Shown: positions 6,926 through 59,190 of the stretch, piece by piece
Numbering within the stretch: position 1 is the first letter of the stretch
How the letters are laid out: every line of letters begins with the position of its first letter
Assembly: GCA_009602725.1 (NCBI GenBank)
Contig: WELB01000191.1
Coordinates: 100,737-164,736, forward strand
Reading direction: 5' to 3'
Source of the DNA: Spirogloea muscicola
Lineage: Eukaryota; Streptophyta; Zygnematophyceae; Spirogloeales; Spirogloeaceae
Length of the DNA stretch: 64,000 bases
Made by a program: the position numbers and the translations under genes
Notes under the pieces: model-generated
Databases searched by the model: none
What the model was told of the DNA's origin: nothing
Seen by the model: only the letters and a program-made list of their open reading frames with translations

Positions 6926-7398
6926 CCGCTCGCAGCAGTGCGGCCAAACACGCTGACCACCCGGCTGAAGACGACTTCGTACCCCTGGCCGTGGATGTGC
7001 ACGGGGCTGTCGGGTCCCAGTGGCTCGACCTGCTAGCCAAGCTTGCGCGTCGCGCTGTGTCGCGCAGGCGAGGTGAGCAGGCTGACTTCAACGCCGCCGG
7101 CTCGTTGGCCCAAGTATTCCGCATGCGACTATCCGTATCCCTTCAGCGGTCCATGGCCCACGCTTTGCACCTACGTGCTGGCCGTGCTCTCGCTGCTGCC
7201 TCTGGCTTTCGTCAGGGGGATTGTTTTTCGCCAGCTAGTCTGTCCGATCTGAGGCTCCGCACTTATTGAGTGACTCATCCTACCCCAGTTCTCAGATAGG
7301 GCTTCTAGCCCTCGTAGTTTGGCCCCTTCGAACCTTGTCAATTCTTTCCCGGGCTGGCTTTTCACAGCCCTTGCCCCCATTGGAAGTGCCACTTCTCT
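6923..7398 (+). mobile_element. LINE fragment, subfamily C: endonuclease-like C-terminus plus 3' UTR
   Basis: The translation includes DDFVPLAVDVHGAVGSQWLD, then FRMRLSVSLQRSMAHALHLR, and ends at a stop near 7268. A 3' UTR follows with GGCCCCTTCGAACCTTGTCA, the hairpin GGGCTGGCTTTTCACAGCCC and terminus GTGCCACTTCTC near 7398. The homologous full domain is at 55944-56690. The next copy starts at the very next bases. Confidence 0.85.
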
Positions 7399-7836
7399 GT
7401 GGACGTGCACGGGGCTCTCGGGTCCCAGTGGCTCGACCTGCTGGCCAGGCTTGTGTGGCGCGCTGTGTCCCGCAGGCGCGGTGAGCCGGCTGACTTCAAC
7501 GCCGCTGGCCAGGTATACCGCATGCGATTGTCAGTCTCCCTTCAGCGGGCAATGGCCCACGCCTTGCATCTGTGTACTGGCCGTGCTCTCGCTGCGGCCT
7601 CACGCTTTCGGCAGGGGGACAATTTTCCGGCAGCTGCTTTGTCTGATTTGAGGCTCCTCACTCGTAAGTACTGAGTGGTCCATCCTCCCCCGTTCTGACA
7701 TAGCATCTTCAGGCCCCTTCGTAGCTGCTTAGCGCTTTTTAGGCCCCTCCGTCATTTGGCCCCTTCGAACCTTCGTCAATTCTTTTCGGGCTGGCTTTTC
7801 ACAGCCCTTGCCCCCTTTGGGAGTGCCACTTCTCTT
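7399..7836 (+). mobile_element. LINE fragment, subfamily C, second copy in tandem
   Basis: This begins inside the VDVHGALGSQWLDLLARL coding stretch directly after the terminus of the previous copy. It keeps YRMRLSVSLQRAMAHALHLC, a stop near 7672, and a 3' UTR with hairpin GGGCTGGCTTTTCACAGCCC and terminus GGGAGTGCCACTTCTC. It is about 80-90% like its neighbour by eye and lacks a short in-frame stretch (AAGQVYRM versus AAGSLAQVFRM). Confidence 0.85.
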
Positions 7837-33189: not shown

Positions 33190-33425
33190 GCGCCTCTTGC
33201 GCCCATAGAGAAGAGGGGCTGGCAAAGCCAGCCCAAAATAGAATGGACAATGTCCGAAGCCAAAAGCAGAGGAGCCGGAAAAAGAAGAAGTGGCTCTCCC
33301 AACGGGGGCAAGGGCTGTGAGAAGCCAGCCCGAAAAGAATTGACAAGGTTCGAAGGAGCCAAACTACGAGCTACGAGCCGGAAAAAAGGACTACACTACA
33401 AAACACGGCAAAACACATAGACGAT
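33190..33425 (-). mobile_element. LINE 3' UTR, subfamily B, minus strand, tail-to-tail with the previous copy
   Basis: The terminus GCGCACTTCTCT complement starts at about 33180. The hairpin complement GGGGCTGGCAAAGCCAGCCC, GGACAATGTCCGAAGCC and GGAGCCGGAAAAA follow. It is interrupted at 33284 by a C copy and resumes at 33377 with CCGGAAAAAAGGACTACACT, matching the uninterrupted copy at 55880. Confidence 0.85.
33284..33376 (-). mobile_element. 93-bp subfamily C insertion with 10-bp target-site duplication
   Basis: GCCGGAAAAA occurs at 33274-33283 and 33377-33386. Between them lies a minus-strand C 3' end: terminus complement GAAGAAGTGGCTCTCCCAAC, hairpin, and TTCGAAGGAGCCAAACTACG. The empty site is seen in B copies near 55879, 24075 and 33080. 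This fixes the C terminus at GAGCCACTTCTTC. Confidence 0.92.
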
Positions 33426-53045: not shown

Positions 53046-53310
53046 TCTTGCTAGCCGTCTCCCTTCAGCGGTCCATGGCCCACGCCTTGCACCTGCGTGC
53101 TGGCCGTGCTCTCGCTGCGGCCTCCGGCTTTCGTCAGGGGGATAGTTTCCCGGCAGCTAGTCTGTCGGATTTGAGGCTCCTCACTCGTACAGCTGAGTGG
53201 TCCATCCTCCCCCGTTCTGCCATAGCCTCTTCAGGCCCCTTCGAACCTTGTCAAGTCTTTTCGGGCTGGCTTCTCACAGCCCTTGCCCCCATTGGGAGAG
53301 CCACTTCTTC
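53046..53310 (+). mobile_element. LINE fragment, subfamily C, C-terminus and 3' UTR
   Basis: LAVSLQRSMAHALHLRAGRA, ASGFRQGDSFPAASLSDLRL, then a 3' UTR with CCTTCGAACCTTGTCAAGTC, hairpin GGGCTGGCTTCTCACAGCCC and terminus ending at 53310 (CCACTTCTTC). It begins 45 bp after the preceding B terminus. Confidence 0.85.
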
Positions 53311-53545
53311 TCACAGCCCTTGCCCCATTTGGGAGAGCCACTTCTTCAGGCCCCGTCATTGCTGCTTAGCTCGTATTTTGGCCCCTTCGAACCTTGTCAA
53401 TTCTTTTCGGGCTCGCTTCTCACAGCCCTTACCCCCATTGGGAGAGCCACTTCTTCAGGCCCCGAAGTCGCTGCTTTGCCCCTTGTCAATTCTTTTCGGG
53501 CTGGCATGTCACAGCCCTTGCCCCCATTGGGAGAGCCACTTCTTC
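53311..53545 (+). repeat. Chain of three further C 3' ends
   Basis: Termini GGGAGAGCCACTTCTTC end at 53347, 53456 and 53545. Each unit starts at the base after the previous terminus: the first in its hairpin (TCACAGCCCTTGCCCC), the next two with AGGCCCCG(T/A)... in the 3' UTR. Unit lengths are 37, 109 and 89 bp. Confidence 0.9.
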
Positions 53546-54070
53546 TTGCTAGCCAGGCTTGCGGGGTTGCCGGGAAGCAACCACCACGGCGAAAAAAGGA
53601 GGAAGGGCCCCCGCCGCCGACCGGCCAGTGCCGGCCCGCGCCGGCCGCTGACCGGCGGGCCGGCCGGCTGCCCGTAAGGCTGGCCGACCTGGATCCCAGG
53701 TTTCTGGCTATGCATCGGACCACTTCGGAACTGCTTCTCAGAAATTATCCCACAGGGCAAGATGACTCGGACTCTGCAGGTCACTCGTGGGTACTGAAGC
53801 TTCCTTCTGCGGTCCTTTCGAATCTAGCTGTGTGCTTTTTCTTTTCGGCACCTTGTGGCGCTATGGACCTTGCCCATTCCTTTTGGGCTGGCCGTTCCCA
53901 GCCCCTCGGTGGGCGAGCAATATATTCTTATCAAAGCTTGGGTAGGATGAATCACATAGAAACCACGAGTCAGATGCCGCAGTTCAGCAGCCTCGGTTTC
54001 CGTCAGGGCGACGTCTATCCGCCTGCAAATGACTATGACTTGCACTTACTAACTCGCGGTTACTTAGAGC
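53546..54070 (+). mobile_element. Mixed LINE scraps
   Basis: A GC-rich unknown piece (53560-53700), then B-like coding and UTR scraps (CACTCGTGGGTACTGAAGC near 53780; TTTTGGGCTGGCCGTTCCCA near 53881), and a coding end matching FRQGDVYPPAND..DLHLLTRGY-stop (53998-54066), the same type as at 22486. Confidence 0.6.
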
Positions 54071-54420
54071 CCCCTTGCAGCGGGCCCCCTTACTAAGCGG
54101 TCCATCCTCCCCCGTTCTGCCATAGCCTCTTCAGGCCCCGCAGTCGCTGCTTAGCTCGTAGTTTGGCCCCTTCGAACCTTGTCAATTCTTTTCGGGCTGG
54201 CTTCTCACAGCCCTTGCCCCCACTGGGAGAGCCACTTCTTCTTGCAGCCGGAGAGCGGTCCCCCTGACGTAAGCCAGAGGCTGCAGCTACATCTGTTCAC
54301 AGCCCTCGCCCCCTTTCTTTAAGAATTGCTCGCCCATAGACAATAAGGGCTAAAGAAGAAAGGCCAGCCCAGAAAGAGGACAAGATCCAAGAGCCACTTG
54401 GGATCACCACTTGCTTTCCT
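54071..54420 (+). mobile_element. LINE 3' UTR, subfamily C, then inverted degenerate ends
   Basis: CCATCCTCCCCCGTTCTGCC to hairpin GGGCTGGCTTCTCACAGCCC and terminus ACTGGGAGAGCCACTTCTTC (54244). Next comes a degenerate plus end (TCACAGCCCTCGCCCCC, 54298) facing a minus end (TTGCTCGCCCATAGACAATA, GGCCAGCCCAGAAAGAGGAC). Confidence 0.75.
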
Positions 54421-55439: not shown

Positions 55440-55727
55440 ACTAGACTCTTGGGCCATCGCGTCACATCCGCATGTGCATAGGGCGTGACAAACACTATGA
55501 AATTTTTAAAAGCTGACTTGAAGAGCACACCCGTGTGGACCATTCGCTCATTGTTGGTCTGCTGCACCTGTACTCGAGACTTCGGTGGCCAGCAAGGCAG
55601 CACTAGCAGATTAACTATCCAGATTTTCCAACTTTGGCTCGGCAACAATGGTGAATTTAGGGCCAGCCAAATGTATGTAGACGGTGGTTCCTGAGGATAA
55701 GTAGCAAGGAGGGAGGGTCGGGGAAGT
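55440..55727. other. No gene recognised
   Basis: Unassigned sequence between the putative secreted gene and the LINE block. Confidence 0.4.
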
Positions 55728-56735
55728 GCTCGCCCACAGAGAAGAAGGGCTGGCAAAGCCAGCCCAAAAAAGAATGGACAATGTCCAAAGCCAAAGAAAG
55801 AGAAGTGCGCGCCCATAGAGAAGAGGGGCTGGCAAAGCCAGCCCAAAAAAGAATGGACAATGTGCAAAGCCAAAGAAAGAGGAGCCGGAGAAAGGACTAC
55901 ACTACAAAACACTGCAGAACACAGAAACGATGCAGAGGGAAGCTCAGTACCCACGAGTGAGCAATATCAGGTCTGAGTAGCTCGCTGCAGGGAAAGAGGC
56001 ACTCCGCCGAGACCCAGAGGCGGCGGCCATAGCACGGCCTGCGCGCGTGTGGACTGCGTGGGCAAGGGAGCGTTGAAGCGATACGGCCAGGCGCATGCGG
56101 AAGACTTGTGCGGGCGAACCGGCGGCGTTGAAGCCGGGCATCGCCCCTGGCAGTCCCGGCCGCCGGTCAATGGCCTGGCGGGCAAGCCGCTGAATGAGAT
56201 CCAGCCAGCGGCTGCCGAAAGCCCCGTGTACATCCATCGTCAGGGCCGCGAATTCATCCGCCACCGGGTGATCAGCATATTTTCGCTCCTTGCCCCGGGC
56301 CGCCTGGCCGACCGCGTGCCCTGCAAACGACGCCGATCTGGTGGGATTGGCGGAGTCGATGCAGTCAGTTGTCACCACATCAGCGATGATGCGGGGACCG
56401 CCGCCGGGCGGGATGGCGACCAGGTCGGCGCGTCGCGTATGGGGCTGGCCGTCCGCGCCCAGCTGGATGGGCATGATGGAGGAGTTCTCCACCGCGACCT
56501 TGAAGCCCGCCTCCGAAAACACCCCCTGCATACCATCGCGCGGGAGGTCGTGGGAAGCGGTCCGCTCGCCTCCGTGTGCGCAACGGAGCATGTGGGCGGC
56601 CAGCTCCGCAGGATCAACGTGACGGTCACCGCACTCGCATTGAGTGACGCCCACGAGGCAGGGACGGGAGGAGGCCCAAGAGCCGGCCGCGGGGCGGGTG
56701 CGGTAGCGCCCGGGCGCCCGCGAAGCAAGCGCGGC
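55728..56735 (-). mobile_element. LINE, subfamily B: best-preserved endonuclease-like C-terminus, minus strand
   Basis: From about 56690 down to the stop at 55944, one open frame encodes a zinc motif (CECGDRH...AAHMLRC, from about 56639), GGERTASHDLPRD, then RRADLVAIPPGGGPRIIADV, VTTD, KERKYADHPVADEFAALTMD, VHGAFGSRWLDLIQRLARQA and FRMRLAVSLQRSLAHAVHTR, ending SYSDLILLTRGY. The R.DL...DV...K..KY pattern after a CxC..HxxxC motif is that of restriction-like endonuclease domains of site-specific LINE clades. The 3' UTR (55943-55800) has the B hairpin, and its terminus (GCGCGCACTT) is followed at once by a second truncated B 3' end to 55728. The reverse transcriptase part is missing. Confidence 0.85.
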
Positions 56736-56795
56736 TAGATTAACTGGTGGCTGGGAGAGGCCAGCCCAAAGGAATGGACAACGCGAAGAAGGCAG
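56736..56795 (-). mobile_element. LINE 3' end, subfamily D, minus strand
   Basis: GATTAACTGGTGGCTGGGAG, AGGCCAGCCCAAAGGAATGG and ACAACG are the complement of the D end. It sits between the divergent B and A copies. Confidence 0.8.
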
Positions 56796-57552
56796 CCGCG
56801 GCGGCGAGGTGGTCTTTTCCACGACCATCTCCGGGATGCGATGCATGGCATCCTTGTGGAGGCTGGCTTCTCGGTGGCAGCCGAGAACTCTGCCGTCATG
56901 CCGCTCCAGCAACGGGCCGACGGTCTCCACGCTCGTCGCGTGGACCTTGTGGCCACCCCACCAGCAGGCGGGCCACGTCTTCTCCTGGACGTGGTGACCA
57001 CTGACTCCTACGACCGCTCACATCCAACCCAGTGTGCCACCAAGGCTGGGTATGCGGTAGCCTGCGCCGCTCGGGCCAAGGAGCTAAAATACGCAGATCA
57101 CCCGCGGGAAGACGAGTTCTTCCCGCTCGCCATCGATACGCACGGGGCGCTGGGCGCTCGGTGGCTCGAGCTGCTCAATCAGCTCTCACGTCACGCCATT
57201 GTCCGCCGCTTCCATGGGGAGCCGGTGGACTCCCATGCAGCAGGGTCGCTAGCGCAGGTTTACCGCATGCGCTTGGCCGTCTCGCTGCAGAGGTCTATGG
57301 CCCGCGCGCTGCACCTGCGTGCAGGCAGAGCCCTCGCTGCTGCCTCTGGCTCTGGCCAGGAGACCCGCTTCCAGGAACCCAGTCTCTCTGACCTGAGGCT
57401 GCTTAGCAGGGGTTACTGAGTGCTTCGTAGCTGCTTCGTTTCTTTTTTGTGCTTGTTGTTCTTCGTACTTCCCCTGGCCCCTTCTCGTCCTTTGTTCATT
57501 CTTTTCTGGGCTGGCTTTTTCCAGCCCCTATCCTCAATGGGCGAGCCCTTCT
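56796..57552 (+). mobile_element. LINE, subfamily A: long endonuclease-like C-terminus plus 3' UTR
   Basis: An open frame to the stop at 57417-57419 includes GILVEAGFSVAAENSAVMPL, ARRVDLVATPPAGGPRLLLD, VVTTD, KELKYADHPREDEFFPLAID, THGALGARWLELLNQLSRHA and YRMRLAVSLQRSMARALHLR, ending LRLLSRGY. The 3' UTR has hairpin GGGCTGGCTTTTTCCAGCCC and terminus CTCAATGGGCGAGCCCTTCTC. This is the reference copy for the A fragments at 4866, 22700 and 33490. It is 5'-truncated before the zinc motif. Confidence 0.88.
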
Positions 57553-57959: not shown

Positions 57960-58262
57960 CTTTCACATCTATCGCATGCGACTAGCCGTATCCCTTCATG
58001 GGGTCCATGGCTCACGCTTTGCACCTGCGTGCTGGCCGTGCTCTCGCTGCTGCCTCTGGCTTCCGTCAGGGGGATTGTTTTCCGCCAGCTAGTTTGTCGG
58101 ATTTGAGGGTCCTCACTCATTGTTATTGAGTGATTCATCCTTCCCTAGTTTGGAGTTAGCGCGCCTTTGGCCTTCCTTCGTAGTTTGGCCCTTTCGAACC
58201 TTGTCAATTCTTTGTGAGCTGGCTTCTCACAGCCCTTGCCCCCATTGGGAGACCCACTTCTT
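57960..58262 (+). mobile_element. LINE fragment, subfamily C: C-terminus and 3' UTR
   Basis: From CTATCGCATGCGACTAGCCG (58000 region, YRMRLAVSL) to the coding end LSDLRVLTHCY-stop (58127), then a UTR with TTCGAACCTTGTCAATTC, hairpin GAGCTGGCTTCTCACAGCCC and terminus GGGAGACCCACTTCTTC at about 58262. Two frames are needed to read the coding part. Confidence 0.8.
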
Positions 58263-59190
58263 CTTTCACAGCCCCTGCCCCCTCCGGAAGAGCTCACTTC
58301 CTTCCGGCGGCAACTCTTCGGGAAAGCCACTTTCTTTCACAGCCCCCGCCCCTTCGGAAGAGCTCACTTCATTCTGGCAGCAACTCTTTCTGACTTGCGA
58401 TTACTACCTAGGGTTTCTAAGTAGTCATGCTACATGATCCTTGCTTAGGCTATGTATAAGAGCGCAATTCGGCCCCTACGAACCCTGTCAAGTCTTTTCG
58501 GGCTGGCTTTCAACAGCCCTCGCCCCCTTCAGATGAGCTTACTTTCTTCCACTACGTTCTTCCACCTTGCACCTTCCGACCTGCTTGGACACTCTATACA
58601 TTCCTTTTGCTTTGGCTGCTACTTCTGGGTTTCGTCCGAGAGACTCTTCTCTAGCTGCAAGTTACTCCGACCTGCGGCTGCTGACTTGGGGTTACTTAGC
58701 TCCCATTCCCTTGTCATTCTTTTCGGGCTGGCTGTCCACAGCCCTTGCCCCCTTTGGGAGAGCCCCTTTCCCATCCGCTGTAGTCCTCTGCATAGCATGT
58801 GTGCTTTTAGCGCCTTTCGGCCCTGTGGACCTTGTCCCGTTTTCTGGGCTGGCTTTTCACAGCCCCCGCCCTCGTTTACGCCCACTTTCACTTTCTTTTT
58901 GTCCCAGGCACAGCAGTGCACTTGCAGGCAGGCGGCGCTTTGGCAGCTGCTACTTCTGGATGTTGTCGGTATGACCTGTTTTCCAGCTGCATGTTACGTC
59001 GACTTGCGGCTGCTGACTTGGGTTACTAGGCTCCCAGTTGCCGTAGTCACTTGTATAGCTAAAATAATTTTAACAACTTTTGGCCATTTGGACCTTGTCC
59101 AATCTTCTGTGGGCTGAAACCTCACAGCCATTGCCATACATAGCAAGAGCTGTTTCTCACTTCTTAGGCTTTGTTCATTCCTTCGCAAAG
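58263..59190 (+). mobile_element. Series of degenerate LINE 3' ends, C-like
   Basis: Directly after the previous terminus come TTTCACAGCCCCTGCCCCCT, then TTTCACAGCCCCCGCCCCTT (58335), GGGCTGGCTTTCAACAGCCC (58500), GGGCTGGCTGTCCACAGCCC (58725), GGGCTGGCTTTTCACAGCCC (58848), and GGGCTGAAACCTCACAGCC (59110). Short coding ends ('SYSDLRLLTWGY' near 58690, 'LRLLTWVT' near 59020) separate some of them. Confidence 0.75.

Follow-up and report, generated by a model that had tools for sequence, protein, structure and literature searches.

The window analysed here, 64 kb of contig WELB01000191.1 (C191; assembly GCA_009602725.1, positions 100,737 to 164,736 of the forward strand) from the zygnematophycean Spirogloea muscicola, whose genome comprises 153 Mb in 471 contigs, contains a chain of abutting 3' ends of a family of long interspersed nuclear elements (LINEs). 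Four exact copies of the family's 17-base terminus, GGGAGAGCCACTTCTTC, end at positions 53310, 53347, 53456 and 53545, with spacings of 37, 109 and 89 bp, and the base following each of the first three is again LINE sequence, all as described in an earlier sequence-only reading of this DNA. When up to two mismatches were allowed, 8 matches to the terminus were found in the window as against a mean of 0.03 in shuffled sequences. The chain is laid out as follows.

53048 to 53056, plus strand: left copy of an outer target-site duplication, TTGCTAGCC.
53057 to 53239, plus strand: 5' part of an older, 5'-truncated LINE copy, ending in ..CCATAGCCTC^TTCAGGCCCC, a form also met in other chains.
53230 to 53239, plus strand: inner duplicated target, within the end of the older 5' part.
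53240 to 53310, plus strand: inner copy, strongly truncated, starting TTCGAACC and ending in the first terminus.
53311 to 53347, plus strand: unit 2, 37 bp, starting TCACAGCCC at the 3' arm of a hairpin and ending in the second terminus.
53348 to 53456, plus strand: unit 3, starting AGGCCCC and ending in the third terminus, taken as the 3' remainder of an older copy.
53457 to 53545, plus strand: unit 4, starting AGGCCCC, with an internal loss, ending in the fourth terminus.
53546 to 53554, plus strand: right copy of the outer duplication, TTGCTAGCC.

A single 9-bp direct repeat therefore flanks the entire four-unit chain. Upstream of the first terminus, CCATAGCCTCTTCAGGCCCC stands directly before TTCGAACC, so that some 30 bases found in the normal element are absent at this point; the exact boundary of the inner copy is provisional, the junction having GGCCCC in common with the element. 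Apart from 2 differences, unit 2 is identical to the final 37 bases of unit 1. The sequence-only reading had each unit starting at a different point of the element (coding sequence, hairpin or untranslated region); instead, units 3 and 4 both begin AGGCCCCG, the AGGCCCC start being preceded by CCTCTTC in an intact copy, and unit 4 is the shorter of the two because of its internal loss.

Genome-wide, the exact terminus occurs 1,662 times (853 + 809), and its backward control not at all. The copies have the constant 3' end (CACTTCTTC) and the variable 5' cut points expected of a LINE, together with target duplications of 6-12 bp, which a script found in 16 of 69 tested copies; in 9 of these 16 the nick lies at C^T. 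The sequence following the termini was counted with exact patterns, which gives approximate genome-wide numbers. At 81 places the terminus is followed within 6 bases by AGGCCCC, that is, by a start at one internal base of the element, between (T)TC and AGGCCCC; the letters in between are TTC at 48 places, none at 18, TTCTTC at 6 and others at 9. At 44 places it is joined within 14 bases to the hairpin 3' arm CACAGCCC (CACAGCCCTTGCCCC), the arm at which unit 2 of the window chain begins. The intact AGGCC site, GCCTCTTCAGGCCCCGCAG, is present in 639 copies, at which about 0.003 insertions would be expected by chance, or about 0.05 if only C^T positions were used, as against the 81 seen. Very strong junction hot spots are CCTC^TTCAGGCC in the family's own 3' region and the hairpin 3' arms of the own and a sister family, TTC^TCACAGCC and CTC^TCCCAGCC; all three sit in small inverted repeats, and CTTC lies within the repeat at both own-family hot spots. 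The AGGCC junctions are dispersed over many contigs, with several far apart on single contigs.

These start points bear directly on the mechanism that had been suggested for the chains, in which the RNA tail anneals to CTTCTTC and primes new copies at old termini, each being 5'-truncated at its own point. The units do abut exactly at termini, at one locus (L047; loci and contigs are designated by L and C numbers) a second copy lies just after the first with TATCAT between them, and 49 of the 101 same-orientation own-family pairs found by exact pattern with gaps of 0-92 have scattered gap values. The other 52 pairs, however, fall on only 3 of the 93 gap values (64, 61 and 67, with 33, 13 and 6 pairs), values that fit an AGGCC-site start with three, two or four TTC units, respectively. 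Where own-family sequence follows, starts cluster at internal hot spots, and the junction seen most often does not show the overlap that tail annealing predicts: the terminus is kept whole and followed by a full TTC of the target, present once in 48 and twice in 6 of the 81 junctions, whereas TTC directly follows only 9 of 56 other termini (P = 3 × 10−9). Examination of what adjoins those 56 termini, the check that had been proposed for tail annealing, showed own-family, same-orientation units in 3 cases and something else in most; by our reading of the flanks, two of the three begin at TTCAGGCC and one after TATCAT, and one more terminus is followed after 6 bases by the terminal unit of a relative. 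The 18 of 81 junctions without an extra TTC are compatible with an annealing overlap, but for the AGGCC and hairpin classes the distribution of start points contradicts the model. Priming at old termini is accordingly very improbable, and the time order that it assumed is probably backwards.

The part of the earlier interpretation that pre-existing elements are favoured insertion sites was, by contrast, upheld. Flanks were compared for 58 exact termini, the first in contig order from C1 to C5:408127 (not random over contigs), and for random positions from the window and 20 ten-kb loci; two termini were dropped for runs of N. Of the 56 usable termini, 24 had flanks that occur 10 or more times in the sample, as against only 82 of 600 random 60-mers (P = 5 × 10−7). 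Taken with the start points, this means that existing LINE 3' regions are preferred for insertion, which takes place at internal sites and not at their ends.

Twenty chains were then read individually, comprising 18 of the 81 AGGCC places together with L019 and L033, which carry two more of these places. Eight of them (L051, L053, L058, L060, L062, L063, L067 and L019) show an older half's nick mark 16-81 bases before the first terminus, and the order is the old half (TCTTCAG or TCTTCAGGC(CCC)), a short 3' fragment of 13-76 nt, the terminus and (TTC)AGGCCCC. This is the form expected of a truncated copy that entered at CCTC^TTCAGGCC and duplicated a short stretch of the target. At L058 only TCTTCA of the old half is found upstream, and the sequence before it is not clearly of the family. 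At L051 and L058 the inserted fragments, which end in the terminus, measure about 21 and 13 nt and are very short for recognisable LINE insertions. The shortest truncated form has 3 occurrences in the genome, 2 of them joined to AGGCCCC, compared with 81 junctions per 1,662 termini, the two patterns differing by 4 bases.

A further eight chains (L033, L052, L054, L055, L056, L057, L059 and L061) have the mark at 112-114, which is the tandem form, and L065 has it at 109; unit 2 is broken in L056 and belongs to another subfamily in L054. In the window the corresponding distance of 119 includes the 37-bp unit. Additional marks at 298 (L067), 247 (L019) and 283 (window) appear, by our reading, to be a separate copy or weak matches. 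Among the 17 chains with a nick mark, reading revealed no piece longer than 114 nt that starts at a second homologous half; at L054, which is without a homologous half upstream of the new copy, the new piece exceeds 112 bases by eye. Of the 69 copy extents, a set that includes some chain units, 49 are longer than 114 nt.

An alternative is duplication at the DNA level, in which the last 109 or 112 bases are doubled when the terminal CTTCTTC slips on, or is end-joined to, the internal CTCTTC, followed by later internal deletions. The tandem form and the 112-bp periods speak for it, including those at C245:138914-139160 and C382:13985-14231, where three AGGCC junctions each at an exact spacing of 112 bp make four-unit arrays; these two have the equal starts and lengths that a tandem satellite would show and are possible satellite seeds. 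The truncated units and the junctions with other families do not share such equal starts and lengths. Duplication accounts neither for truncated first units that start beside TTCAG nor for the extra complete TTC in 54 of the 81 junctions against 9 of 56 elsewhere, and it gives no account of cross-family junctions with duplicated targets.

Such cross-family junctions are found at 19 places, where the terminus is joined to the hairpin arm of another family, CAGCCACCAGTTAATC, with identical spacing in 11. In the two that were read (L047 and the minus-strand case at L049) the cut is GGCCTC^TCCCAGCC, and TCCCAGCC stands on each side of the insertion. Variant arms show a 7-bp duplication, CCGGCCA (L049, plus strand), or one of 5-6 bp, CCAGC or CCCAGC (L033); furthermore, L030 duplicates 8 bases with one mismatch, L021 about 5 bases, and the window copy ending at 58263 has a duplication of 7 bp, TTTCACA. 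Junctions into the hairpins of other families with duplications of 5-8 bp cannot be made by tandem duplication, which we consider unlikely as the general explanation; the sequence-only reading had already argued against simple unequal crossing-over as the chief origin of the chains, and the cross-family junctions and truncated first units agree with it.

L047 (3300-4500) also carries two copies split by TATCAT; the first is preceded by TTATCA and the second followed by TTATCAT, which looks like double use of one target. Next to them, a third copy sits nested in a hairpin of another family. At L011 (1500-1660) and L026 (1500-1560) what comes after the terminus is the family's own 3' end in reverse complement (CCARTGGGGGCAAGG..), and these are opposite-orientation nested insertions.

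Production of a whole chain in one event is a second alternative: reverse transcriptase would halt in the loop of a small CUUC hairpin and jump to the CUUCUUC end of another or the same RNA. It draws support from the single outer duplication around the window chain, and likewise around the L019 chain, from the CTTC-containing inverted repeats at both own-family hot spots, and from the ability of LINE enzymes to jump between template ends, as described in the excerpted text of PMC6895275. To place the 5' half and its duplicate TTCAGGCC upstream of a truncated unit would nevertheless require a second switch back to the same place; in the cross-family cases that were read the 5' half upstream is that of the other family, and at L054 the new copy is joined to the remainder of another subfamily. 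Template switching is for these reasons an improbable source of the chains.

We consider it likely that the chains are nested insertions into older LINE copies, made by target-primed reverse transcription. The putative nick targets are CCTC^TTCAGGCC and the GGGCTGGC..CAGCCC hairpin. New RNA would be copied at a nick inside an older copy, at the former site or in a hairpin arm, and the 3' remainder of the old copy would be left directly after the new terminus, where it mimics the start of a new copy. Once it extends beyond the nick, which lies 112 nt in from the end of the RNA, the complementary DNA (cDNA) would be homologous to the upstream half of the target, could pair with it and be resolved there, and would in this way give a perfect tandem of 109 or 112 bp, while shorter cDNAs would give truncated first units. 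Since homology begins only past the 112-nt nick, both the length ceiling and the perfect tandems would follow. Repeats of the process at one locus, or later copying of a tandem, could produce longer chains such as that in the window. A more specific version, in which an R2-type LINE strongly targets its own family's 3' region and the matching hairpins of sister families, and in which insertion is finished when the cDNA pairs with the older copy's upstream half, is put forward tentatively.

Several observations weigh against nested insertion. The perfect-tandem forms (the eight chains and L065) fit DNA duplication equally well, the C245 and C382 arrays may well have grown by crossing-over, and pairing of the cDNA with the upstream half is deduced rather than observed. 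Nesting predicts that unit 2 is the older, but divergence between units 1 and 2 over a 49-base core, with truncated, broken or other-subfamily units left out, showed no clear age difference, which leaves room for DNA duplication: changes are more numerous in unit 2 at L055, at L061 and in the window, and in unit 1 at L059, L062, L063 and L066, and the two are tied in L019, L033, L052, L057, L064 and L065. Four chains (L053, L062, L066 and L068) are irregular; L062 duplicates a few bases only (TCTT), L053 contains filler, and no nick mark was found in L066, L068 or L064, the last of which contains Ns. Duplications of at least 6 bp were detected by the script in only 16 of the 69 copies, and no clear duplication is seen at several of 17 repeat-flanked termini (for example L002, L014, L022, L023 and L044, of which L014 and L023 were partly masked). 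Finally, hairpin-loop targeting as a general mode was rejected: 16 other reconstructed target sites had a mean stem score of 5.9 against 6.7 in the background (P = 0.78), and hairpin recognition is therefore not a general rule, although it may operate at the three hot spots.

With regard to hairpins, CAGCC starts in the first 9 bases of 10 of the 58 flanks, compared with 1.5 expected, although by eye L005 and L035 are not hairpin arms. GGGCTGG(3-8)CAGCC hairpins number 167 in the 264 kb formed by the window and the 20 ten-kb loci, and are common to the 3' ends of several LINE families.

The other features of the window that concern this and related families are the following.

6991 to 7836, plus strand: two head-to-tail units (6991-7398 and 7399-7836) of a related subfamily, in coding register.
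33284 to 33300, minus strand: terminus of a solo copy with a 12-bp duplication, TTTTTCCGGCTC.
54225 to 54241, plus strand: terminus of a neighbouring solo copy, with duplicated target TTGCAGC (10 bp with one mismatch).
55947 to 57017, minus strand: open frame of a related LINE family, whose C-terminal 258 residues gave a low-confidence R2-like model.
57961 to 58270, plus strand: copy whose terminus ends at 58263, with TTTCACA on either side (57961-57967 and 58264-58270), inserted in a hairpin region of another repeat.

The sequence-only reading had described the same end-to-end abutment at 7398, 7836, 58262 and about 55800 (minus strand), with differing outcomes. At 7398/7836 a unit does start at 7399, with coding sequence in register with that from 6991, the two units being 79-91% alike in three main aligned pieces. 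At 58262 the terminus, which ends at 58263, is followed by TTTCACA; this also occurs just before that copy, which was therefore inserted into a hairpin region of another repeat. On the minus strand at about 55800 (window 55700-55950) a second unit of another family does follow a terminus, beginning TTTCTTTGG where the first unit has CCTCTTTCTTTGG, perhaps in a manner like the nesting above.

The protein of the family was approached through its C-terminal peptide, which had no significant match in Pfam (one weak, unrelated), while a sequence search of the PDB gave no match to R2 and classification against a family library no useful match. RVT_1 matches are plentiful in the genome. Six reverse transcriptase matches share the best score (C33, C170, C235 at two places, C267 and C412; open frames of 1172-1237 aa) and perhaps represent a recently active retroelement; none of these matches is assigned here to this family. 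For the C-terminal part of the related window family, not this family's own protein, a structural model of low confidence was obtained (predicted local distance difference test score of 50), whose top three Foldseek hits in the PDB are R2 proteins (E = 0.0075, 0.034 and 0.048; probabilities 0.98, 0.80 and 0.72). With R2 proteins as the first three fold hits, the model suggests that an R2-type endonuclease, which in R2-like LINEs is a C-terminal PD-(D/E)xK domain, is likely. A single fixed target, as in R2, was not found: the copies are dispersed and their flanks varied.

Zepp, a LINE of Coccomyxa, ends in poly(A), unlike the copies of the present family, which end in CTTCTTC. The two share nested LINE copies; the excerpts of the Zepp study report strictly one cluster per chromosome (PMC3446292), whereas AGGCC nests here lie over many contigs. 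The comparisons below likewise draw on excerpts of the papers cited. R2 resembles the present family in the first PDB matches of the related-family model and in target-primed copies with 5' truncation, but it inserts at a specific site in 28S ribosomal RNA genes (PMC4640811), while the copies here are dispersed, with a loose C^T preference and self-like hot spots. Repeats are frequent targets of elements with restriction-like endonucleases, and the targets listed for non-long-terminal-repeat elements include transposons (PMC4640811). In the R2 integration model, the cDNA is joined to the upstream target via a four-way junction, in a manner more like strand invasion where homology is given (PMC6895275), and such pairing would explain the 112-nt limit here. 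R1 arrays in Drosophila ribosomal DNA (PMC2718515) are similar in their head-to-tail copies and repeated insertion at a target beside an existing copy, which may be compared with L047, but they reuse the 28S duplication on the 5' side, whereas the main class here uses fixed sites in the element's own 3' region. Plant long terminal repeat retrotransposons show autoinsertion into 3' untranslated regions and a weak palindrome preference (PMC6911290); they are another class of element with another integration chemistry, and the hot spots here are of a single base. The excerpted R2 endonuclease text (PMC3636483) does not mention hairpins or palindromes, and our literature search gave no report of such LINE self-targeting among the papers listed. 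The points that set this family apart are hot spots of a single base within its own 3' region, a hairpin target common with a sister family, and a length ceiling.

Second-strand completion of LINE insertion is poorly understood, and a family that inserts into itself lets the resolution point be read from the genome, because the upstream target is homologous to the cDNA. A LINE end followed by a LINE start should not be read as end-to-end insertion before the duplicated targets have been checked. If the proposal is true, the four-way-junction model would have left a natural in vivo footprint in the 112-nt ceiling and the perfect-tandem spike, and the nests would offer a path by which LINE tails give rise to new satellite arrays.
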